DNA of 64,000 nt from Spirosoma radiotolerans (GTDB taxonomy: Bacteria > Bacteroidota > Bacteroidia > Cytophagales > Spirosomataceae), in assembly GCF_000974425.1 (NCBI RefSeq), contig NZ_CP010429.1:1674001-1738000 (forward strand), given 5' to 3'. Below the pieces are notes generated by a model. That model was not told where the DNA came from and did not search any database. It saw only the letters and a program-made list of their open reading frames with translations. Of this stretch, positions 659-55,952 are shown in pieces (the first letter of the stretch is position 1; the number at the start of each line of letters is the position of its first letter). A program made the position numbers and the translations under genes.

Positions 659-1327
659 ATGCTGGCTGCCGAACTAATAGATCCCATGCTTCCGGCCCTG
701 AAGCCAACCGACCTGGTTGGACAGGCTTTAGCGTGGATGGAAGAGCACCGCGTCGGTCAACTTATACTGACTGACCAGGGCGACTATCGGGGTATTGTAA
801 GCGAAGAATTGCTTATGGACGTTGCGGATGATGAGCGTCCTCTGCGAGACGTGATGTGCCTGTTTGAGCAGATTTTTGTCAATGAAGAGCAACACATGCT
901 TGAAGTGCTGGGGCTGGCTATTCAACATCAGATGCAGGTCATTGCCGTTATTGGCGAGGGGCGCGAGTTTAGCGGTACCATTTCCGTGAATGAACTGCTT
1001 AAGAAATTTGCCCAGGATTTGGGTGTTCAGGAGGTAGGCGCCATTCTGATCCTGAATATGAATGAGCGAGACTACTCAATGGCGGAGGTTAGTCGGCTGA
1101 TTGAATCCAACAATGTTAAAATTATAAGCAGTTATTTTTCCAGTGCTGCCTTCGGTATGCCTGATCGTTCCCGGCTGACACTCAAGCTGAACCGCCGTGA
1201 CATCACCCCCGTCATCTCGACCCTCGAACGGTTTGGCTACCGAATAGAAGCGGCTTTTGCCAATGCACCGGTCGAAAGTATTGATCAGGAGCGGCTCGAT
1301 TTATTACTGCGTTACCTCAATACCTAG
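659..1327 (+). CDS. CBS-domain protein
   Basis: A 222-residue cytoplasmic protein. The N-terminal 120 residues read as a tandem CBS pair, with L-I-L-T-D-Q-G-D-Y-R-G-I-V-S-E ending the first repeat and F-S-G-T-I-S-V-N-E ending the second. CBS pairs usually bind adenosyl nucleotides. The C-terminal 90 residues (G-A-I-L-I-L-N-M-N onward) resemble a small ACT-like regulatory fold. No enzymatic domain is visible, so it is probably a sensor. It lies 76 bases upstream of NAD kinase, an arrangement I recall as common in Cytophagales; a link to nucleotide status is inference. Confidence 0.8.
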   Translation: MLAAELIDPMLPALKPTDLVGQALAWMEEHRVGQLILTDQGDYRGIVSEELLMDVADDERPLRDVMCLFEQIFVNEEQHMLEVLGLAIQHQMQVIAVIGEGREFSGTISVNELLKKFAQDLGVQEVGAILILNMNERDYSMAEVSRLIESNNVKIISSYFSSAAFGMPDRSRLTLKLNRRDITPVISTLERFGYRIEAAFANAPVESIDQERLDLLLRYLNT

Positions 1328-1403
1328 TGTTGACGTTTTCGGGTCAAGTTTCATCAGGATGGATCGCCGTTAACTTTACACCGCAGATCGTAAACTTTTA
1401 TTT

Positions 1404-2279
1404 ATGAAAATCGCCATTCACGGGCGCAACTTTCCCGAATCGGCACGGCCTTACATTCAATCAATGTTTGAGGAGCTGGCCAGGCGGCAAACGGAAGTAA
1501 TCATTTCGCTGGGATACCGTGAGTATCTGGACAATGCAGCCGTAGCGCATTATAGTGAGGCAACGTATACCGTTGAAGAAGGTGTTGCTGACGCCGACTT
1601 TATTTTTAGCCTTGGGGGCGACGGTACATTACTCGACGCCGTTACGCATGTCGGCTCCCGCCAAATTCCCATTATTGGTATCAACATTGGTCGTCTGGGG
1701 TTTCTGGCTACCGTAGCACCGGCATCGGTACGGCTCATGATTGACGCTATCTTCAACGGACAATATACTATTGATGAGCGTACGTTAGTAAGTGTGCGAT
1801 CAACTCAGGACATTTTTGGAAATTTACCGTTCGGGCTTAATGATTTTACCATTACCCGAACCCAAACTTCCTCTATGATCACAGTCCATTCGTACCTCGA
1901 CGGCGAATTTCTGAATTCGTACTGGGCAGATGGTTTGATCATTTCAACACCTTCAGGATCAACAGGTTATTCGCTTAGTTGTGGCGGCCCAGTACTGTTG
2001 CCCCAAACAGAAAGCTTTATCATTACCCCCATCAGTCCGCACAATCTCAACGTCCGGCCAATGATCGTTATGGACACGTGCCAACTGGCCTTTGAGGTGG
2101 AAAGCCGGAGTGGTAACTTTTTAGCCGCCTTAGATTCCCGTTCGTACACGGTCGATACGTCGGTCAGGATCAGCGTGCAAAAAGAAGCGTTCAAGGCGCG
2201 CCTGGTTAAGCTTAGCGACGATAATTTCCTGAATACGCTTCGAAGTAAACTCAACTGGGGCTGGGACATCCGTAATTAA
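1404..2279 (+). CDS. nadK: NAD kinase
   Basis: Phosphorylates NAD to NADP in the cytoplasm. The 291-residue length is normal for the family. The diagnostic G-G-D-G-T-L-L motif lies near residue 72, followed by N-I-G-R-L-G-F-L near residue 95. The second conserved block, T-P-S-G-S-T-G-Y-S-L-S-x-G-G-P, lies near residue 185. It follows the CBS protein closely and is followed by DUF6089 membrane proteins. The ATG at 1404 fits the usual N-terminus (M-K-I-A-I-H-G-R). Confidence 0.96.
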   Translation: MKIAIHGRNFPESARPYIQSMFEELARRQTEVIISLGYREYLDNAAVAHYSEATYTVEEGVADADFIFSLGGDGTLLDAVTHVGSRQIPIIGINIGRLGFLATVAPASVRLMIDAIFNGQYTIDERTLVSVRSTQDIFGNLPFGLNDFTITRTQTSSMITVHSYLDGEFLNSYWADGLIISTPSGSTGYSLSCGGPVLLPQTESFIITPISPHNLNVRPMIVMDTCQLAFEVESRSGNFLAALDSRSYTVDTSVRISVQKEAFKARLVKLSDDNFLNTLRSKLNWGWDIRN

Positions 2280-2442
2280 AGGCTGGCTTAATTACGCTCA
2301 TTCGCTTTGAATAATCCTGTTTCTTTCGCTTGTTTTTTGGGCCTGGCATAATTTTTATAGCTCATTGCCAATAAAAGCAAGTCCGTTGCCGTTTCGGAAA
2401 TGGCTGGCTTTATGGGGCAGTGGTGGTTGATTCACGTTTTTA

Positions 2443-3462
2443 ATGAATATGAATAAGTATAAACAGGTAGTAATAGGCGCTGCGACAATCTGTTTGCTGG
2501 CAGGTTTAGTTACAGAAAGCTCGGCGCAACGCCGACAGAATGCGCGTTTCGCTCCGTATTCGTCAATTACGTTCGGTGCAGGTACATCCACTTATTTTGG
2601 TGATTTGGCCGGTTATCGCAAGCCAATTAAGTCATTATTTACCCTGCCCCGCTGGAATGTCGGCCTGGGCTATACTCGTCAGTTTACGCCCCATTTTGCC
2701 GCTCGTGCTATGTTTACCTGGGCGCGCATCACAGGCGATGATTATACGTTTGCCAAGAGCAATATAGAAGAATACCTACCTCAGTATGCCCGAAATGCAC
2801 ACTTCCGGAACGACCTGAAAGAGTTTGCCGTAACAGGAATTTACAATTTTATTGAGGACGGCCGAAACTCGGAGTCGCGGGCGAAAATTACTCCTTATAT
2901 TTTTGGTGGGTTAGCGCTGGTCGCACACAGCCCTGAAGCCAGAACGCCGGTAGCAACAGGAACTGGTACGGATGTGTATGCAGGTCAGGAATGGGTAAAA
3001 CTTCAGCCTCTGCATACGGAAGGACAAGGTCAGCCAGGATTCGATAAGCCCTATTCGCTGGTAACTTTAGCTATACCAGTTGGTTTCGGCGTACGCTATA
3101 AGTTAAATGAGAGCTTTAATATAGGGGCAGAAATCGGTTTCCGGTATACCTTCACCGATTACCTGGATGATGTAGGGAACGGTCCTTACGCCGATCCCGC
3201 CACCCAGCAAGGTGTAGCTACGGTCATGTCGAACCGGCGCTTTGAGCAATTTGCGGCTCGCTATAAGAACGCACCGGATCGGTATACGCCACTACAAAAC
3301 CTATTCAATAATGGTAGCCCCGAATTGCAGGCAGCTATTTCTGATGCCCTAACTACCCCTGTTCGCTCAACAGACGGGAAATTAAATGATGGCTATTTAT
3401 TGACTAATTTCTCGATCCATTACATTATTCCAGGCAAGATAAAATGCCCTCCGGTCAAGTAA
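2443..3462 (+). CDS. DUF6089-type outer-membrane beta-barrel protein
   Basis: A 339-residue protein with a signal peptide of about 29 residues ending S-S-A-Q. The mature part is a run of alternating aromatic and hydrophobic strands with glycine turns, such as I-T-F-G-A-G-T-S-T-Y-F-G-D-L-A-G and Y-I-F-G-G-L-A. It ends in a strand-like N-F-S-I-H-Y-I-I-P segment. This matches the DUF6089 outer-membrane barrel family of Bacteroidota, of unknown function. A paralogue follows about 100 bases downstream, so the two may be co-transcribed. The ATG at 2443 gives two Met choices (M-N-M-N-K); either leaves the signal intact. Confidence 0.8.
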   Translation: MNMNKYKQVVIGAATICLLAGLVTESSAQRRQNARFAPYSSITFGAGTSTYFGDLAGYRKPIKSLFTLPRWNVGLGYTRQFTPHFAARAMFTWARITGDDYTFAKSNIEEYLPQYARNAHFRNDLKEFAVTGIYNFIEDGRNSESRAKITPYIFGGLALVAHSPEARTPVATGTGTDVYAGQEWVKLQPLHTEGQGQPGFDKPYSLVTLAIPVGFGVRYKLNESFNIGAEIGFRYTFTDYLDDVGNGPYADPATQQGVATVMSNRRFEQFAARYKNAPDRYTPLQNLFNNGSPELQAAISDALTTPVRSTDGKLNDGYLLTNFSIHYIIPGKIKCPPVK

Positions 3463-4892: not shown

Positions 4893-7634
4893 CTAGGGCA
4901 CTCGTTTCGCTTGTGCTTCCAGAATCAGTTGTAAATTGGCGTTCCCGGCCGTAATGTGGGTATAGGAACCTTGTCCTGACTGGGCCAGCTTTATAAGGTT
5001 TTTTCCATTTACCTCGCTTTTGCCGAAGGTGAAAATGGTTAAGAAAACATCGTCTTTACTTGATTTACGCACCAGGTCATACACATCGTCACTAACCGAA
5101 AATTCACCATCGGTTGCCAGAATAATCCGGTTATTTCCTGCCCGTATGTAATGTTTGTTCGCCATCTTGTAAGCGAGTTGAAGGCCTTTGTCTGCGTCGG
5201 TGTCCCCGTCTGACTGGAGTTGGTCAATCACATGGGTAATTTCGTTGACGTTGGCTCCAGACGTGGGTTTTAGAACGACACGCGCTTTGCCCGAGTAAAC
5301 CACAATACAAAGCTGGTCTTCAGGCCTGAGCACGCTAAGAAGTGATTTTATGGATCGCTTTAACAAAGGCATTTTATAAGGAGAAGCCATCGAAGCCGAT
5401 ACATCAAGTAACAAAACCATGTTGTTGGGGGCAAAGCCCGCAAGGGAAAGCGAACCGTCTGACTGGCTTTTTTGACCAATATATACTGTATCCGTCCTTA
5501 CCTGATTGACATAAACCGTGTCGTGTTTTATAACCGTCCTGTCCTGTTGTCTGGGTTCTGTAGGTTGGGTCAGTCGTGCAGTGTCAATAGGCTTACGCTC
5601 ACTATCTGGTTTAGGACCGGGCTGTATTGTGTCCTCCGGTATGGTCTGTTGCCCGACTGCTGGTGTTGACCGCCGAAACGCGAAGACATTGGGCTCAGTT
5701 ACGGCTTTAAGGACACCTACTTTAGCCAGCTCGCTGAATTTATTGTATTGGTAAACCAGCTCGTTGTTAAAGAAATAGTAAATCATTTCATACGGATGGG
5801 TTGCGAAGACAGCTGCAGGCTTTTTGATTTTTGGCGCCATCTCGGCCATTCGAAGCGAGTTTGTACCAATAGCCTCATACGGTGAGTAAGGGCACAGGCC
5901 GTTACTTGGACCATAGCGTTGCAGACCCTTCAGGTTCTGGAATTCGCTGGAAATCAAACTCCTGGCCTCGGCACGAAGTGAATCGGTAGCGGGTCGTTCG
6001 GTAGCTTCACCGCGTAGATAGGCTCGTATGCCAAATACGATTTTTTTGTTGGCATCGATGATCTTGAGTAAGGCTCTGCCAGCCGTAATCCAGGAAGTAA
6101 GCGGTTTAGTGGCCGGATAACTTTCATGAATGCGTCGAACATCCTGGTAGAGTTGCTCCTTCTTTTTGTCGAATTCGTCGAATAAAAAAGCATACCGATC
6201 CAAAATCGCATCAGATCGCCGAAACTGGTCCTGCTCGTATTGACCTCTGGCTGCATAGTCGACCAACTCAATGCTCAGATTGTCCATTTCGGTCAGCATG
6301 GCCAGCAGTACATCGGCTTGTTTATTGATCGAGTTGCGATAGGTCGATGGAATGTGTACACTATTCAGAAGAAGAAGCTGATGTTCAGAAACGGGTACTT
6401 TGTATTCGTTATGGGCGTAGGTTAAGCTATTTCGGCGTTTGTTGCCAGCTGATTCCCGGTAGCGATCGGCTGACGACTGGTAGTTACGGACCAACACCTG
6501 AAGATGGTTCATTTGCCGCAGCGACTCGTTGATAAATTCCACATAGGCGTTTAGTGCCTGAAAAGTAGCTGTTTGGGCCGGGGCCGCAGCTGGTTTTATA
6601 ACGAAGGCAAGCGGTTTGCCGTCACTAAAAGGTTGGGCCTGCTGTATGGTCTGGATGGCTGGTTGAGGAGGGTCAATTTTAAAGATAGGAGAGAGTTTTG
6701 GGTACTCCAGCAGTTGTCTGGTTGGGGTACTGTACTTGACAAAACTTTGTTGCCAGTTTACTAAATCATTATTGTACTGATTAATAAGCGAACGATACAC
6801 CTTGTTGCCGTGCTCGGCGGTTTGCTGTGCGGCAAATGTATAGTCATCCACAGCGCGCTTTTTTACCTCCTGTATGGCCCTCAAACCCGTTCTGAATGAA
6901 TTAAGCATGTCCGATGCGGGATAGCCGATCGTCGACGTTGCTTTCCCAAAGGAAGTCAGGAGGGTCTGATCAGACAGGATGCTTTGCTGAACAAGTTTTT
7001 TGGGCCAGTCAGCGCGGCTTTTTTCATTCAGGTAGAAAGATAGCGTATCAAGTAGTTTACGCTGGCTTGTCAGCGCCTGTTCCATTTCTTTTTCAGCATA
7101 CAGATAGGCATCCGTGTCCCGGTAGGGCTGGTAACGGCGATACACCCGTTGAATTTGGGCATACATCGCGTCTTTCGCCTGGCTGAACTGGCTGGTAAGC
7201 GTTTGTAGCTCAACCATCAAGGCATTTGCTTTCTCAAACTTGTCGCGTTCGTAATCCTTCAGCCGATCGTACGTTTCCAGCTTTTTTGTTGTCTCATCAA
7301 TTTTGGTCAACAGCTTCCAGAGCGATTCTGTACTTGTATTTAAGCGCTGTTTTTCGGCTTCGGTTAGGGCTACAGAAGTCAGGGCTTTTTTGTAATAGTA
7401 CGATTCCAGTATCCTGGATGATGGCATCTGTGGCGGTGCGCCCAATTTCGATTTGTAGCCTTCTATACTCGAATAATAGAGCTGGATTTGTTGGGAGCGA
7501 TAGCTTACCTCGTCGGTTGACTGATTCAAAAAGGCGATGTACTGATTGAGTGCCTGCTGAGGGGTTTCCTGATAGGAACCATTGGTTAAAAAAACGCTGG
7601 CAAAAACCAGGAATAGACAAAAGAAGGCCTGCAT
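4893..7634 (-). CDS. exported protein with C-terminal von Willebrand factor A domain
   Basis: A 913-residue protein with an N-terminal signal segment (F-F-C-L-F-L-V-F-A-S-V-F-L). The following 650 residues are mostly charged, probably helical and tandemly related: the opening L-N-Q-Y-I-A-F-L-N-Q-S recurs as L-N-A-Y-V-E-F-I-N-E-S near residue 360. A Pro/Thr/Gln-rich linker precedes a C-terminal VWA domain whose MIDAS motif D-V-S-A-S starts at Asp744, with A-T-D-G-E-F later. VWA domains bind metal and protein ligands. The long N-terminal part is not a family I recognise. It is monocistronic; a role in the cell envelope is inferred. Confidence 0.78.
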   Translation of the reverse strand: MQAFFCLFLVFASVFLTNGSYQETPQQALNQYIAFLNQSTDEVSYRSQQIQLYYSSIEGYKSKLGAPPQMPSSRILESYYYKKALTSVALTEAEKQRLNTSTESLWKLLTKIDETTKKLETYDRLKDYERDKFEKANALMVELQTLTSQFSQAKDAMYAQIQRVYRRYQPYRDTDAYLYAEKEMEQALTSQRKLLDTLSFYLNEKSRADWPKKLVQQSILSDQTLLTSFGKATSTIGYPASDMLNSFRTGLRAIQEVKKRAVDDYTFAAQQTAEHGNKVYRSLINQYNNDLVNWQQSFVKYSTPTRQLLEYPKLSPIFKIDPPQPAIQTIQQAQPFSDGKPLAFVIKPAAAPAQTATFQALNAYVEFINESLRQMNHLQVLVRNYQSSADRYRESAGNKRRNSLTYAHNEYKVPVSEHQLLLLNSVHIPSTYRNSINKQADVLLAMLTEMDNLSIELVDYAARGQYEQDQFRRSDAILDRYAFLFDEFDKKKEQLYQDVRRIHESYPATKPLTSWITAGRALLKIIDANKKIVFGIRAYLRGEATERPATDSLRAEARSLISSEFQNLKGLQRYGPSNGLCPYSPYEAIGTNSLRMAEMAPKIKKPAAVFATHPYEMIYYFFNNELVYQYNKFSELAKVGVLKAVTEPNVFAFRRSTPAVGQQTIPEDTIQPGPKPDSERKPIDTARLTQPTEPRQQDRTVIKHDTVYVNQVRTDTVYIGQKSQSDGSLSLAGFAPNNMVLLLDVSASMASPYKMPLLKRSIKSLLSVLRPEDQLCIVVYSGKARVVLKPTSGANVNEITHVIDQLQSDGDTDADKGLQLAYKMANKHYIRAGNNRIILATDGEFSVSDDVYDLVRKSSKDDVFLTIFTFGKSEVNGKNLIKLAQSGQGSYTHITAGNANLQLILEAQAKRVP

Positions 7635-7852
7635 ATCGACTTGACAAAGAAAGAGCGCGAAATGGACGGAAGCAGGGCATCGTGTAATCAGCTATGCAAA
7701 CCGAAACCTGCCCGTTCCTAATTCAGATAGAAAGTTTACGGATTTGGGAAAGCGAAGTTCAAGCCTATCTTATTGAGAAGCTACAAGAAGTGTGTAACCG
7801 GTTATTTTAAACGTGAACAATGTCACTGCGACATTGATTAAAAAAGTATTGA

Positions 7853-7899
7853 GTGCCGTTGGTACGCAACCAGGCTAATGGGTTACGTACCTACGGCAC
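7853..7899. repeat. 14-bp inverted repeat with one mismatch
   Basis: Arms GTGCCGTTGGTACG (7853-7866) and CGTACCTACGGCAC (7886-7899) pair except at one T-T position, with a 19-base loop. Function unknown. Confidence 0.6.
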
Positions 7900-8003
7900 G
7901 CGGTTGAAGACAGCAATAACGCTTGTTACAAACCTTAGACTGCTACGCGGCCATTTTTTATATTATAAATCAAGCAAGGCATAGATTGGCATTGCAGATT
8001 AAG

Positions 8004-8058
8004 CACAGACGCCCGGCGAATACACGTTTGTCTTTCGTGTATTCGCCGGGCGTCTGTG
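8004..8058. repeat. perfect 23-bp inverted repeat
   Basis: Arms 8004-8026 and 8036-8058 are fully complementary around a 9-base loop (TTTGTCTTT). It lies 83 bases past the bshB1 stop. There is no T-run on either side, so it is not a classical intrinsic terminator, though it could stop transcription or protect a 3' end. Confidence 0.75.
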
Positions 8059-8141
8059 TTGGGAAGAAGTAATCAAGCTAAATTAACCGTTGATAAAGCT
8101 GGGCTTATAGTCGCTTGGTTATCAACGTTGATACTTATCTG

Positions 8142-8861
8142 CTAGACTAACGCAAACAAATCCTGTACGCCCAGCATACGCCGACTGATGAAGCCTTCGC
8201 CGAATTCTGCACCAATCATATGGCCGTGTTCGCGGGTGCGCGACTCCAGAAATTTCATGAACGGCTCGCCCGAAATATAGCTTTGAGGCTCCGTACTTTC
8301 GGGGTTGAAAAATTGGCTTTTATAGGCTTTTATAGCGGCTATTTTTCCGTCCCAGTAGGGCGTAATATCAACCACGAAATCAGGCTTCAGAGAACGATCC
8401 TGGATAAAATGATAAATAAACTTAGGCCGGTGCGCTTCCTGGGACTTACCGTCTTTCCCCACCGTTTTGATCTGACGTAAGCCAGCGTAAAAACAGGCAT
8501 CTTCAACAAGCTCGGCAGCACGACCGTGATCGGGATGGCGGTCGTCGGGTGTATTCGTTAATATGATTTCTGGCCGAAACTGGCGAATAACGGCAATCAG
8601 GGCCAACTGGTGTTCTTCGTCATTTCGGAAAAAAGCATCCCGGAAACCCATGTTTTCTCTCGCTACCAGATTCATGATCCGGGCACCTTCGGCTGCTTCC
8701 TGCAAGCGAATTTCGGGCGTTCCGCGTGTCCCTAACTCTCCCCGGGTCAGGTCGACGCCAGCAACAGTTTTACCCTGCGCTACTAATGAAAGAACAGTGC
8801 CGGCACAGGTCATTTCAATATCATCGGGATGGGCCGCAATGGCCAGTACGTCAACGGTCAT
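8142..8861 (-). CDS. bshB1: bacillithiol biosynthesis deacetylase BshB1
   Basis: Hydrolyses N-acetylglucosaminyl-malate to glucosaminyl-malate in bacillithiol synthesis. The 239-residue length fits the PIG-L/LmbE family. The zinc motif A-H-P-D-D is at residues 10-14, the partner H-P-D-H at about residue 107, and L-T-R-G-E-L-G-T-R-G-T is the block typical of BshB1 rather than other deacetylases. It acts in the cytoplasm. Other bsh genes are not nearby, as is usual. It sits alone on the minus strand, divergent from the nitrilase-fold gene. Confidence 0.92.
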   Translation of the reverse strand: MTVDVLAIAAHPDDIEMTCAGTVLSLVAQGKTVAGVDLTRGELGTRGTPEIRLQEAAEGARIMNLVARENMGFRDAFFRNDEEHQLALIAVIRQFRPEIILTNTPDDRHPDHGRAAELVEDACFYAGLRQIKTVGKDGKSQEAHRPKFIYHFIQDRSLKPDFVVDITPYWDGKIAAIKAYKSQFFNPESTEPQSYISGEPFMKFLESRTREHGHMIGAEFGEGFISRRMLGVQDLFALV

Positions 8862-50869: not shown

Positions 50870-51280
50870 ATGGAAACAGAAAGCATAACCCTGCAGGAGC
50901 AGGCACCAAAAACCGTAATGGCTGGCAGCAATTTGCCTGAGCAAATTCAGGATGCCAAACCCGCTGGGCACCCGACTGCTCCTTTGGATACGGTCGCCAA
51001 TTTAAGTCCGGCAACCTTCTCCACGTTTTTCACGTGGCGGGGCAATGGCCTGGTCAACGTTCGAGCTCTGGACGCGCGAATTACCGCCAACTCACGGGTA
51101 TTTGTCTCGATCAGCGAGTTCAACTCCGATGCTCGTCAGAACCGATTTATTGGCAATGCGTCAATGAGTGTGCTCAACGTTAGCCCCTTTAACGGTGGCT
51201 TCTGGGCGCGGATAAATGTGAATTTCAGTCAAGCCCTGAATGTACGTTTGGACGTGCTTGTAGACCCATCCGGGATTTAA
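50870..51280 (+). CDS. small protein heading the S8 protease module, unrecognised
   Basis: A 136-residue protein with no signal peptide or membrane helix and no family I recognise. The first 45 residues are polar and Pro/Ala-rich (L-P-E-Q-I-Q-D-A-K-P-A-G-H-P-T-A-P). The rest alternates strands: T-F-S-T-F-F-T-W-R-G-N-G, V-N-V-R-A-L-D-A-R-I-T, R-V-F-V-S-I-S-E-F and F-W-A-R-I-N-V-N-F, suggesting a small beta-sandwich. It is 49 bases upstream of the active S8 gene on the same strand, so co-transcription is likely. It could be a substrate, chaperone or partner of the proteases; that is inference. Confidence 0.6.
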   Translation: METESITLQEQAPKTVMAGSNLPEQIQDAKPAGHPTAPLDTVANLSPATFSTFFTWRGNGLVNVRALDARITANSRVFVSISEFNSDARQNRFIGNASMSVLNVSPFNGGFWARINVNFSQALNVRLDVLVDPSGI

Positions 51281-51329
51281 ATCGTAGTTCCCTTTCCTCT
51301 TTATTATCTAAACCAAAAAAGTTAAAGTC

Positions 51330-52679
51330 ATGGCTAAGAAAGAGTCAACCAATTCGTCGAACGGCGCTAATCGGGCTTCTTCATCTGTTGATGAATTATT
51401 GCTTGCCGCTCTTGAGCGGAACGATACCAGTTTCGAAACGGGCCGGTATGTGGTTACGTTTAAAGAAGGTGCCATGGAAGAAGGGCTCCAGTCTCTGCAA
51501 ACGCAGGGAATGCGCGTTGCCGATACCCGCGATTTCGATAATCAGGCCCTGGAGATGGACAGTGTCGGTGATGCTGACGCCGTAGTCTTCTCGGAAATTG
51601 GCTCCGCACTTCTTGGAGGTAATGCGGCTCAGGAGCGCAGCATAAGCACCTTTGCCGAGATTGCTTCAGACAGCCCGATCCTGTCCATCGATCCGGAATA
51701 TTTTGTTTTTGCGGATAGCATGTATTCCGAATTTTTGCAAGGCCGTGCGACCCAAACGGCCCAGGGGACGTCGAACGAATTTCTGCGGGGGTTTTTGCAG
51801 GCAACCGAGACCATTGCGAAAGAGATGCGGGAAAATGGCAATTCGCAGCTGGAAATCGAGGAGGAAGTGCAGGTACTTGGCGCAACCTGGGGGTTAAATG
51901 CCTGCCGGGTACCACCCAGCATACGCAGTGGCGTTGGTATAAAAGTAGCCGTACTCGACACCGGTTTTGATCTGGGCCACCCCGATTTTGCGGGCCGCCC
52001 TATTGTGAGCCAAACCTTCGTGGGACAGCCGGTTCAGGATATTCATGGGCATGGCACCCATACGACAGGTACCGCCTGTGGTCCTAAAGCGCCCGTAGGC
52101 ACAACACCCCGCTACGGGATTGGGTATCGGTCGTCCATTTATGTTGGAAAAGTACTGTCGAACTCAGGCGGTAGTGTAGGCAGCAGTGTGCTGGCAGGTA
52201 TGAACTGGGCCGTTGCCAATCGGTGTGCTGTTATCTCCATGTCCCTTGGTGGGCAGGGTGGAGTTCAGCCGTCCTATACCGCAGCCGGACAAGCTGCGCT
52301 GAACAACGGTTGTCTCATCATTGCCGCAGCCGGTAATGTGCCGGGTGGGCCAACGGGTTATCCGGCCAACTCGCCCACAATTATGTCGGTAGCCTCGCTC
52401 GATTCAAATCTGGCCCCATCGTCCTTTTCTTGCCAGGGCAAGATCGAGATTGCAGGTCCTGGTCGGGATGTTTTCTCATCCTGGCCTCGACCAACCCGCT
52501 ACCGAACGATTAGCGGAACCAGTATGGCTACGCCACATGTATCGGGTTGTGCCGCGCTCTGGGCCGAAACATCGCCCAATATGCGTGGCCTGACACTCTG
52601 GCGGAAGCTACAGGCCTCGGCCAGACACTTGCCCTTCCCGGCCACACGCGTGGGCGCCGGTCTGGTACAGGCTCCCTAG
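51330..52679 (+). CDS. S8 subtilase with intact triad and I9-like propeptide, no signal peptide
   Basis: A 449-residue serine protease. Residues of about 20-125 form a propeptide-like region (G-R-Y-V-V-T-F-K-E-G-A, S-I-D-P-E-Y-F-V-F-A). A helical linker (R-G-F-L-Q-A-T-E-T-I-A-K-E-M-R) precedes the S8 domain. The triad is Asp210 (A-V-L-D-T-G-F-D), His241 (G-H-G-T-H) and Ser398 (S-G-T-S-M-A-T-P-H), with oxyanion Asn336 (A-A-A-G-N). There is no signal peptide: the start M-A-K-K-E-S-T-N-S-S-N is polar, so it may act in the cytoplasm or leave by another route. A dead paralogue lies 450 bases downstream. Confidence 0.92.
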   Translation: MAKKESTNSSNGANRASSSVDELLLAALERNDTSFETGRYVVTFKEGAMEEGLQSLQTQGMRVADTRDFDNQALEMDSVGDADAVVFSEIGSALLGGNAAQERSISTFAEIASDSPILSIDPEYFVFADSMYSEFLQGRATQTAQGTSNEFLRGFLQATETIAKEMRENGNSQLEIEEEVQVLGATWGLNACRVPPSIRSGVGIKVAVLDTGFDLGHPDFAGRPIVSQTFVGQPVQDIHGHGTHTTGTACGPKAPVGTTPRYGIGYRSSIYVGKVLSNSGGSVGSSVLAGMNWAVANRCAVISMSLGGQGGVQPSYTAAGQAALNNGCLIIAAAGNVPGGPTGYPANSPTIMSVASLDSNLAPSSFSCQGKIEIAGPGRDVFSSWPRPTRYRTISGTSMATPHVSGCAALWAETSPNMRGLTLWRKLQASARHLPFPATRVGAGLVQAP

Positions 52680-52694
52680 GCAACGCTAAACGGT

Positions 52695-52725
52695 GTAGGT
52701 GGTGTGTTCGTTACATACCACCTAC
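52695..52725. repeat. 12-bp hairpin between the active S8 gene and the I9-like gene
   Basis: GTAGGTGGTGTG pairs with CATACCACCTAC (one G-T pair) over a 7-base loop, just after the S8 stop. No T-run follows, so it may tune rather than stop transcription. Confidence 0.6.
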
Positions 52726-52738
52726 CCACAAAAAAAGC

Positions 52739-53065
52739 ATGACATACAGTCGATGGTTTGTTATTTTACTCTTATTGGTCGTTTCAAAGGCAGACGAACA
52801 ACCGGTACGTTATTCCCCTACTATTATGTCTACTACGAAGAAATGGGTTGTCACCCTGGCCAGTGATCGGCCAATAAGTGAGGTATCCAACGAGTTAACC
52901 AAAACCGGATTCGACGTTGATCAGGTACTTGACCAGATTGGCTGTATCACAGGTTCTGCCAGCGACGAGGTCGTGCAGAAACTGCGAAAAGTCCCTGGCG
53001 TGGCTGATGTGTCGCCGGAATCACCTATCCAACTCCCGCCATCCGACGAATCGATTACCTGGTAG
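52739..53065 (+). CDS. stand-alone I9-propeptide-like protein (possible protease inhibitor)
   Basis: A 108-residue protein. From about residue 34 it matches the ferredoxin-like I9/subtilisin-propeptide pattern: W-V-V-T-L-A-S-D-R-P, E-L-T-K-T-G-F-D-V-D-Q-V-L-D-Q-I-G-C-I-T-G, then V-Q-K-L-R-K-V-P-G-V-A-D-V-S-P-E. It has no protease domain. ATG 52739 gives an N-terminal hydrophobic stretch (F-V-I-L-L-L-L-V-V-S) that would export it; ATG 52826 (M-S-T-T-K-K-W) would give a cytoplasmic 79-residue inhibitor. Its place between two S8 genes suggests it inhibits or folds them. Known stand-alone I9 proteins inhibit subtilases. Confidence 0.7.
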   Translation: MTYSRWFVILLLLVVSKADEQPVRYSPTIMSTTKKWVVTLASDRPISEVSNELTKTGFDVDQVLDQIGCITGSASDEVVQKLRKVPGVADVSPESPIQLPPSDESITW

Positions 53066-53125
53066 AATGATCTGCCTGTCCGTAGAATATACCATAACCT
53101 ATTACTTACTTGGAGGGACATTGTC

Positions 53126-54529
53126 ATGGCACGAAGTGATATGCAAAATGACGCTCCGGAGGGATCATCGGCCAGCCGCGTAGCTTCGTCCGTTGACGAA
53201 CTGTTTCTGGCCGCTTTGGCGCGTGGTGATGATCGCTTTCAAACCGGTCGCTATCTGGTTACCTTTAAAGAAGGCGCTGGTCAGTCGGGTCTACGGTATT
53301 TAGAGGCTATGCGGGTGGCTCATGCCGGAGACTTTGAGGGGCAGGCTGTTACGCTGGATCAACTGAGCGATGCCGATGCGCTGTTCCTACCCGAAATCAA
53401 CATGGCGCTGATTGGTGGTCAGGCGGCTAGTGAGCATAAGCTGGGGGAACAGGCCGAGATCGCTTCGGATAGTCCAATTGCTTCCATCGAACCGGAGTAT
53501 TTTGTGTTTGCCGATGGCGGCACAAGCGGGAGCGTTGTTGAGAGTGGCTTTGTCGAGTTAGCGAAGAGCACAACGTTCGAAAGCTTACCCGGCTTTACTG
53601 AATCATTATACCAGGCTTCCAATAGTTATTTACGGGGGTTTTTGCAGGCTACAGAAACGATTGCCCGAGAGATACGAAAAACAGGCAATGGCCATTCTCA
53701 CCAGGAAATAGAGGAAGAAACGGAAGCCCTTCTGGCTACCTGGGGCCTGAAAGCGTGTAAAGTGCCGACCAGCAGACGCAGCGGTGCGGGCATCAACATT
53801 GCCGTGCTGGCAAATGGGTTCGATAGCGGGCATCCTGATTTTGTGGGCCGTTCCATCGTTAGTCAAACCTTTGTTGGTGAGCCCGTCATGGATCTTAACG
53901 GGCATGGTACTCATATGATTGGCACCGCCTGTGGCCCGCTGTCTCCCGCCGACCCGACTCCGCGCTACGGCATTGGCTATCAGACATCGATTTATGTGGC
54001 CAAGGTGCTGACGAACTCAATGATGGGAACCGTCGCTAGTGTTTTGACGGGTATCAACTGGGCCATCGCGAATCGCTGTCCAGTCATTTTTGCTCCGCTG
54101 GCTATGGCAGGAGGACCTTCGGCTGTCTTTACGGCTGCCGGGAAGGCCGCCCTGAACAAGGGGTGCCTGCTCATTGCCGGATCGAGTAGCGCAGGGGCAT
54201 CGGTGGGTGCTCCGGCCAACTCGCCTACTATCCTGTCGGTAGCTGCGCTCAACCAGAATTTACAGCCTACTCCGTTCTCACCCGTGGGCAAAATCGACAT
54301 GGCCGCTCCCGGCGTAGATACTTTCTCGTCCTGGCCCCGGCCGCGCCGGTATGCTACCATTAGCGGCATTGCATCGGCCACGGCCCATGTAGCCGGGTGT
54401 GCCGCCTTATGGGCCGAAACGTCGCCAGCCTTACGCGGTATTCGGCTATGGCAAAAGCTACAGAATACGGCCAGAGGGCTTCCGTTTCCGGCTACACGCG
54501 TGGGCGCAGGCCTGGTTCAGGCGCCCTAA
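53126..54529 (+). CDS. S8 pseudoprotease paralogue (Asp, Asn and Ser lost)
   Basis: A 467-residue full-length homologue of the active S8 gene upstream, with matching propeptide (S-S-V-D-E-L-F-L-A-A-L, G-R-Y-L-V-T-F-K-E-G-A), linker (R-G-F-L-Q-A-T-E-T-I-A-R-E-I-R) and catalytic fold. The triad Asp is Ala229 (A-V-L-A-N-G-F-D), the Ser is Ala416 (S-G-I-A-S-A-T-A-H), and the oxyanion Asn is Ser355 (A-G-S-S-S). Only His260 remains. The frame is otherwise undamaged, so loss of catalysis looks selected rather than decayed. A likely role is binding, as a decoy or partner. A purine-rich site GGAGGG lies ahead of the ATG. Confidence 0.88.
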   Translation: MARSDMQNDAPEGSSASRVASSVDELFLAALARGDDRFQTGRYLVTFKEGAGQSGLRYLEAMRVAHAGDFEGQAVTLDQLSDADALFLPEINMALIGGQAASEHKLGEQAEIASDSPIASIEPEYFVFADGGTSGSVVESGFVELAKSTTFESLPGFTESLYQASNSYLRGFLQATETIAREIRKTGNGHSHQEIEEETEALLATWGLKACKVPTSRRSGAGINIAVLANGFDSGHPDFVGRSIVSQTFVGEPVMDLNGHGTHMIGTACGPLSPADPTPRYGIGYQTSIYVAKVLTNSMMGTVASVLTGINWAIANRCPVIFAPLAMAGGPSAVFTAAGKAALNKGCLLIAGSSSAGASVGAPANSPTILSVAALNQNLQPTPFSPVGKIDMAAPGVDTFSSWPRPRRYATISGIASATAHVAGCAALWAETSPALRGIRLWQKLQNTARGLPFPATRVGAGLVQAP

Positions 54530-54542
54530 CTGTGTGCTTACG

Positions 54543-55095
54543 CTAGTGCGTCACCCACCTCTTGCGGATAGCTTCCATCAGTCCCTGCATGTAGCCAACC
54601 GCGTGCAAACTGCCTAACAGGCTGTAGCCCTGATGCTCATGGCTGTCGCCTGCCATGGTTGGTACATGATTGGGTCGGATGGGGCCTTTGTCGCCAATGT
54701 CGTAATAGGCCTTCATGGCTTTGTACATATCGTTCTGCCCATCATCGAAGAAGGTTTCTTCAAAGTTCTGGCGGTTGCCCCGTATGTCGCGAAAGTGCAC
54801 AAAGAAGATTTTGTTGCGTTCCCCGAAGTACTTCACCACCGTCGGAATATCTTCGCCCATGGTGGCAAAACTGCCCTGGCACATGGTGATGCCGTTGTTG
54901 AGGCTCGGATAAAGGGCCAGCATGCGCTTGAAGGCGTCGGCCGACGTCATAATCCGGGAGATGCCCCGCAGGGTATCGACCGGCGGATCGTCGGGGTGCA
55001 GGGCCAGCTTTATACCGGCTTTCTCCGCTTCAGGAACGACCGCTTTCAAAAAGTAGTCGAGGTTTTTCCACATCGTGTCGGCCGAGAAATGAGCC
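54543..55095 (-). pseudogene. mannonate dehydratase (uxuA) C-terminal remnant
   Basis: An open frame of 206 codons on the minus strand matches only the second half of UxuA: F-S-A-D-T-M-W-K-N-L-D-Y-F-L, G-I-K-L-A-L-H-P-D-D-P-P, L-N-N-G-I-T-M-C-Q-G-S, K-I-F-F-V-H-F-R-D-I-R and R-P-N-H-V-P-T-M-A. The N-terminal part of about 150-180 residues, with substrate and metal residues, is absent; the frame's first 23 codons are unrelated and run into the next gene. The remnant was probably cut by a rearrangement that also brought in the neighbouring plus-strand genes. Confidence 0.85.
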
Positions 55096-55148
55096 AAAAT
55101 AGGCCCGTGTCGCTTAACTTTCGGCCTCGACCCACGAACATCCAAACT

Positions 55149-55952
55149 ATGCTCTTTTATCAAGGACTTAGATATACCTTATTCGGCCTAATGATCTGCT
55201 GCTCCCTGACCGGTTTGGCTCAGAAAGCAACCGAAATTCGGCGATTTCAACTGCCGCAGGTTCAGCAGGGCGTGGCGGTCGACCAAACCCATTTCTACGT
55301 CATCAATAATCATTCGCTGACCAAACACACCAAGCCAGACGGTAAACAAGTAGCCGTCTGGAGCGATACGACGGGTTTTTTGAAGCATATGAACAGTGGA
55401 GTCGTCATCGGGAAGAAACTTTACTGCACCCACTCGAATTACCCCGATGTGCCCATGGCCAGCTCCATCGAAATCTTTGACACGCGCACTCTGAAACACA
55501 TTGGTAATCATAGCTTTGGATTGTTTCCAGGCTCCGTGACCTGGGCCGATTTTCACCAGGGCTTCTGGTGGGTCGCCTTTGCCAACTACTCGAACAAAGC
55601 CTCCGCCGAAGGCCGGGATAACCGCTGGACAACACTGGTCAAATTCAACGAAAACTGGCAGCAACTGGAATCCTGGGCGTTTCCGGCCAATGTGTTACAG
55701 GCTTTCGCGCCCTACAGCACATCGGGCGGCACCTGGGGCCCCGACGGACTCATCTATTGCACTGGTCATGACAAGCCCGAAGTATATGTCCTGAAACTCC
55801 CGGAGCGGGGGCATACGCTGCAATACGTCAAAACCATTCCGACCCGCAGCGAAGGACAGGCCTTCTCCATTGACCGCAGCCTGCCTAACAAGCTCGTACT
55901 GTACGGGATTACCCGCAACGATAATTACGTAATTGTCTCGGTCGTTGAGTGA
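55149..55952 (+). CDS. exported beta-propeller-like protein, function unknown
   Basis: A 267-residue protein with signal peptide (F-G-L-M-I-C-C-S-L-T-G-L-A-Q). The mature part consists of repeated four-strand-like units: V-A-V-D-Q-T-H-F-Y-V-I-N-N, G-K-K-L-Y-C-T-H-S-N-Y-P, G-F-W-W-V-A-F-A-N-Y and G-P-D-G-L-I-Y-C-T-G-H-D. This pattern fits a small propeller lacking a clear active site. ATG 55149 is preferred; a longer frame reaches 54633 but only by reading over the uxuA remnant. It lies immediately beyond the truncation point of uxuA. Confidence 0.75.
   Translation: MLFYQGLRYTLFGLMICCSLTGLAQKATEIRRFQLPQVQQGVAVDQTHFYVINNHSLTKHTKPDGKQVAVWSDTTGFLKHMNSGVVIGKKLYCTHSNYPDVPMASSIEIFDTRTLKHIGNHSFGLFPGSVTWADFHQGFWWVAFANYSNKASAEGRDNRWTTLVKFNENWQQLESWAFPANVLQAFAPYSTSGGTWGPDGLIYCTGHDKPEVYVLKLPERGHTLQYVKTIPTRSEGQAFSIDRSLPNKLVLYGITRNDNYVIVSVVE

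Follow-up and report, generated by a model that had tools for sequence, protein, structure and literature searches.

On Plasmodium chromosome 5 (PMC6993865, in part), the genes for SUB1, SUB1-ProM, PIMMS2/SOPT and SUB3 lie next to each other in one direction; ProM inhibits SUB1, and PIMMS2/SOPT is likely inactive. By analogy, this SUB1 - ProM - PIMMS2 arrangement is the nearest precedent for the locus that we analyzed, which lies in a 64,000-nucleotide stretch of DNA (the window, positions 1674001-1738000 of the 7.03-Mb Spirosoma radiotolerans genome) and encodes an active-type S8 subtilase (S8a), a stand-alone protein resembling an I9 propeptide, and a degenerate S8 paralogue (S8p). Both loci combine an active subtilase, a stand-alone propeptide-like gene and a subtilase that is, or is likely, inactive in the same active - I9 - dead order. 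However, the Plasmodium locus is eukaryotic, its proteins are secreted and it forms no operon, the likeness drawn here being one of logic and gene order, and unlike the malaria locus the bacterial pair of subtilase and I9 is mostly found without a dead copy.

Stand-alone I9 inhibitors are also on record, namely POIA1, yeast proteinase B inhibitor 2, Arabidopsis SPI-1 and TgMIC5 (excerpts of PMC6993865 and PMC10580911). Like the protein described here, they are small and separate, with a propeptide fold and an active-site tail, but they are eukaryotic, and the excerpts neither describe adjacency to the gene of the target protease nor mention a Pro-Pro tail such as that of the bacterial I9 family. 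In Clostridioides difficile, an active subtilase can be under the control of dead Csp subtilases (PMC6636752, in part); there too, an active subtilase is accompanied by dead paralogues that keep a prodomain and regulate the pathway (PMC6636752; also PMC12880746, both in part). The Csp proteins differ in their jelly-roll insertion and role in spore germination, and the excerpt of PMC6636752 mentions no detached I9 gene. Among open-licence PubMed Central papers, we found no description of a bacterial S8 and I9 pair.

The subtilase and its detached I9-like partner

What stands out at the Spirosoma locus is the conserved pair of an S8 gene and a downstream I9-like gene, together with the repeated birth of dead copies beside it. 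The original prediction had described four plus-strand genes with gaps of 49-60 bases, and all of these open reading frames (ORFs) were found in place, separated by 49, 59 and 60 bases:

50870-51280, plus strand: small protein of 136 amino acids (aa), predicted beta sandwich, optional accessory (from ORF, AlphaFold model and relatives)
51330-52679, plus strand: S8a, active-type subtilase of 449 aa with an N-terminal I9-like prodomain, a helical linker and a catalytic domain, no evident signal peptide
52739-53065, plus strand: stand-alone I9-like protein, ORF of 108 aa, of which the last 79, starting at the Met codon at 52826, form the conserved core
53126-54529, plus strand: S8p, pseudoprotease paralogue of 467 aa with an I9-like prodomain; His is the one key residue left, Asp, Asn and Ser being gone

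These genes do not constitute a fixed four-gene module, as had been proposed, a notion that we rejected since only 4 of 55 loci have a dead copy and few have the small gene upstream of S8. The conserved unit is the two-gene pair. Our 55 loci comprise 26 family members from a scan of genome contigs with S8a (which gave 27, L040 being left out before the counts as a generic S8 matching at 35% over part of the query, without I9), 22 from genome searches, six from plasmids, and the window. A stand-alone I9-like ORF lies downstream of S8 on the same strand in all 55, although 26 of these I9 rows built the profile while 29 did not, and several loci are closely related to one another; S8 and I9 overlap by 4 bases in 10 of them. 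One locus, L114, was found via the I9 profile only. The order of S8 and I9 is thus not random. The earlier idea of controlled proteolysis is supported. Two loci that enter the I9 count (L034, cut at a contig end, and L112, with an incomplete S8 frame) are not in the first tree (57 of 59 rows); a second tree of 42 rows omits the plasmid loci, and its clade test named a group seen in the first. As controls, no separate I9 match lies beside any of 79 other S8 loci on viral contigs, nor is there an I9 within 1.5 kb of the seven S8 loci examined among the 10 others of the same genome. In a later set, I9 adjoins S8 in six of eight loci.

S8a has a complete Asp-His-Ser triad and the oxyanion Asn, keeping D (VLDTG), H (HGHGTH), N (AAAGN) and S (SGTSMATPHV), in agreement with the full triad originally read from it; the labels D32, H64, N155 and S221 follow subtilisin BPN' numbering. 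Scanning with Pfam finds Peptidase_S8 (PF00082, cut-off 21.8) in S8a (133.4 bits) and S8p (82 bits), and no domain in the small protein or the I9 protein. The two proteases have in common the predicted propeptide-like and linker regions, being 60% identical across 447 aligned columns that also take in the catalytic domain, and the closest relative of S8a is that of Spirosoma fluviale (L014, 85%). A signal peptide is not evident, as had been noted: judged solely by hydropathy, one of 59 family S8 proteins has a value above 1.9, vs all seven of the genome's other S8 loci that were compared. Neither subtilase reaches the NCBIfam cut-offs for type VII mycosin (equivalog; S8a 108.3 and S8p 68.4 vs 278.75 bits), CspBA (20.5 and 21.8 vs 1250 bits) or CspC (11.3 and 11.0 vs 675 bits). 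With PADLOC, S8a scores 66.1 bits against a generic "subtilase" model and 18.4 bits against IetS, while the small protein and the I9 protein are unmatched in a scan that did not search for the partner genes of subtilase systems.

The detached protein had been called I9-propeptide-like, an assignment that is weak when based on the single sequence. Subtilisin prosegments are the best matches in the PDB for a profile built from 26 relatives (E 0.003-0.016), but the window protein scores 13.8 bits against Pfam Inhibitor_I9 (PF05922), under the cut-off of 21.2; this model weakly matches 5 of 26 relatives (best E 0.0094), and so does the unrelated MORF_dom. We therefore label the protein I9-like and do not place it in PF05922. 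In the BPN' propeptide, Asp71 caps a helix of the catalytic domain (PMC6993865, in part), and 44 of 55 I9 proteins have an acidic residue at the position that aligns with it. Beyond it, in a pattern that was spotted first and counted afterwards, the chain ends within eight residues, near the expected P1, in 13 of the 55, while 41 of the other 42 tails have a proline at positions 6-8, near P1/P1'. Since cleavage should stop at a chain end or a proline near P1, this tail pattern fits what would be expected of an uncleavable inhibitor. As for the ORF, its position was correct but its start is doubtful. Relatives begin at the Met coded at 52826, not 52739, and the 29 codons from 52739 are not coding-like when compared with S. 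fluviale (ratio of replacement to synonymous change, pN/pS, of 0.91, vs 0.26 for the core); the start may consequently be either 52739 or 52826. A hydrophobic leader precedes the core in the window (52739-52825), L014, L015, L017, L021 and L036, and may be a signal peptide or non-coding.

Degenerate copies and an optional small gene

S8p has lost three of the four key residues, just as first reported, with D absent from VLANG, N from AGSSS and S from SGIASATAH, while H is kept in NGHGTH. Lacking a complete triad and the oxyanion Asn, it is an S8 homologue for which peptidase activity is not predicted. Dead copies are found after I9 in the window and L014, and before I9 in L018 and L021; they arose at least twice, and all four have open frames. 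The losses are hence not confined to one genome with frameshifts in close relatives, the S. fluviale copy (L014) being intact. Changes at near-invariant positions of S8p are almost wholly confined to the catalytic cleft, and its predicted fold is under constraint, which together argue for a genuine pseudoenzyme.

The small gene is an optional partner. Its product has a predicted beta sandwich in an AlphaFold model (predicted local distance difference test, pLDDT, 70), and relatives occur in 5 of 200 family genomes, the own one included, and in 3 of 22 pair-carrying genomes. Among these loci, only the window, two Telluribacter loci (L015 and L017) and L039 have the gene immediately upstream of S8; relatives away from the pair are found in L058 and, weakly, L079/L115. 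In S. fluviale (L014, ~7700-7950), a decayed relic of the gene precedes S8a, while S8a, I9 and S8p are open. In L067 (5210-5624, minus strand), a domain like the small protein follows directly behind a C-terminal S8 fragment that is read in a different frame. This broken gene hints that S8 and the small protein may be fused elsewhere.

Distribution and mobility

According to record titles, hosts of the pair include Bacteroidota, a Planctomyces metagenome-assembled genome (MAG), Acidobacteriota, Rubrivivax, Halomonas, Sphingomonas, Roseicella, Streptomyces, a Hyphomicrobiales MAG and an Acidimicrobiales MAG; the six plasmid records are from Methylobacterium, Rhizobium (two), Streptomyces, Hymenobacter and Palleronia. 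The family S8 is rare. With E up to 1e-50, a strict limit that makes these counts lower bounds, each including its center genome, S8p as query finds it in at least 13 of 222 family genomes, and S8a as query in at least 13 of 291 order genomes (a set overlapping the 222) and in at least 6 of 294, 6 of 199 and 3 of 179 genomes of further sets. Across the phylum, the I9 profile matches 6 of 395 genomes, three of them with pairs (the own genome, G254 and G301), the remaining three being dropped as low-scoring matches within long frames. A phage collection yielded 30 records matching S8a, none of which covers 80% and all of which are below 60% identity, and of 80 viral contigs kept out of 87, only L156 has a family member with I9.

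Presence and absence could be compared directly at one chromosomal site. In the window and S. fluviale, the module sits between a GntP-type permease gene and a downstream gene, which in G167 and G004 adjoin at a distance of 110 bases, an empty site; identity of these flanking genes to those of S. fluviale is 96-97% and 88%. Of the 24 permease loci read, two are these empty sites and two belong to the window and to S. fluviale; in the other 20, nothing within 1.5 kb matches the downstream gene. The S8a-I9-S8p form occurs in 2 of 36 genomes of the genus Spirosoma, and gain of the module at the site is a simpler reading than loss. Between S8p and the next gene, the window also has a 206-aa frame on the minus strand (54543-55163) that matches D-mannonate dehydratase (UxuA) in its C-terminal half only (profile positions 171-351 of 352), a truncated gene; no such frame was seen there in S. 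fluviale (L014).

Apart from S8, I9, common transporters and sigma factors, nothing recurs across unrelated loci in an all-against-all comparison of neighbors. The defense or developmental role once suggested found no direct support, and a defense role, though possible, is not supported by this comparison of recurring neighbors, which included no test for enrichment near defense genes. Individual loci do have possible conflict-system neighbors: Endonuclease_NS by the L016 pair (5720-7612), Trypsin_2 by the L082 pair (6658-8646) and a TIR protein near the L080 pair (826-1542). In a separate case, the family S8 of L150 (G1359, 964-3000, minus strand) has no detached I9 but a C-terminal extension, the end of which is similar to the protein encoded by the adjacent gene.

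Alternative explanations and the favored reading

We lean toward reading the locus as a mobile, intracellular protease-inhibitor switch with S8p as a pseudoprotease regulator; inhibition, cytoplasmic location, the partner of S8p and the biological purpose are what we infer here. S8a would be an intracellular subtilase synthesized in zymogen form, with an N-terminal I9 domain of its own. The second, separate I9 domain encoded by the next gene would dock onto the same face of mature S8a, its tail entering the active site and mimicking a product there without being cleaved itself. S8a would be restrained by its own prodomain first and by the co-made I9 protein second, and would stay inactive until removal or titration of the inhibitor. 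For S8p, a putative catalytically dead regulator, a pro-subtilisin fold is still expected; it probably binds either S8a or I9 and may tune the switch in this way.

Several observations weigh against this reading. Two of the eight later loci (L148 and L150) have no I9 within ~5 kb on either side, the I9 protein of L083 has neither type of tail, and both the tail classes and the cleft ranges were set only after the sequences had been inspected. If real, the leader on five Spirosoma/Telluribacter I9 ORFs and on L036 would mean export. A role for S8p as a sponge for I9 is doubtful, at least in a simple form, since an uncleaved prodomain in cis would cover the face that the detached I9 needs; the presumed docking helices of S8a and S8p in the window are 71% and 75% identical, too close to the 66% of the whole catalytic domain to bear on the matter. 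The constraint on S8p, moreover, is partly gauged by a pN/pS of 0.24 against S. fluviale that comes from one genome pair with synonymous sites near saturation.

This value also bears on whether S8p is a functionless, decaying duplicate, which we regard as very improbable. Its presence in only 4 of 55 loci and replacement-site change about twice that of S8a would suit decay, but besides the low pN/pS, all four frames are open, near-invariant changes fall nearly all in the cleft, and S8p predates the split of three Spirosoma copies, while the small gene has meanwhile decayed in S. fluviale. It is hardly credible that, as happens in clusters for peptide maturation, S8a serves to process the small protein or some different precursor. 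The small gene does immediately precede S8 in the window, L015, L017 and L039, and there are weak NCBIfam matches to QhpE and PatA, but these are far under the cut-offs (60.5 vs 165 and 33.5 vs 421 bits), and the gene was not found beside other pairs, occurs in L058 without S8 and is decayed in S. fluviale.

The remaining alternatives concern the pair itself. A toxin-antitoxin-like or effector-immunity pair, in which a harmful subtilase spreads horizontally with I9 as its antidote, seems rather unlikely to us, even though the unit has two genes that overlap in 10 of 55 loci, is patchy across several phyla and six plasmids, is missing from an empty site in two relatives and has no other recurring neighbors, and even though the leader on some I9 ORFs would fit a periplasmic immunity protein. 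Against it, S8a has its own inhibitory prodomain, secretion or export genes do not recur beside it in the neighbor comparison, there is no known toxicity, and we found no such system in the literature covered. We consider it improbable that the detached I9 chiefly serves the folding of S8a and not its inhibition. I9 prodomains are known folding helpers (PMC6993865 and PMC10580911, in part) and I9 is constantly linked to S8, but S8a already has a prodomain, and the tail pattern is needed by an inhibitor and superfluous for a helper.

The favored protease-inhibitor switch invites a bolder version, which we think unlikely to hold in full: a mobile, intracellular, toxin-antitoxin-like switch whose duplicated enzymes repeatedly become dead regulators, independently reaching the active-inhibitor-dead arrangement of the malaria SUB1 locus. 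In any case, the locus family offers recurring pseudoenzyme birth beside an active parent and an apparent convergence with that locus, in a compact, scattered bacterial pair whose subtilase and detached I9-like protein can be tested together. If I9 does inhibit S8a, the pair would represent a general bacterial protease-inhibitor switch so far without a name.

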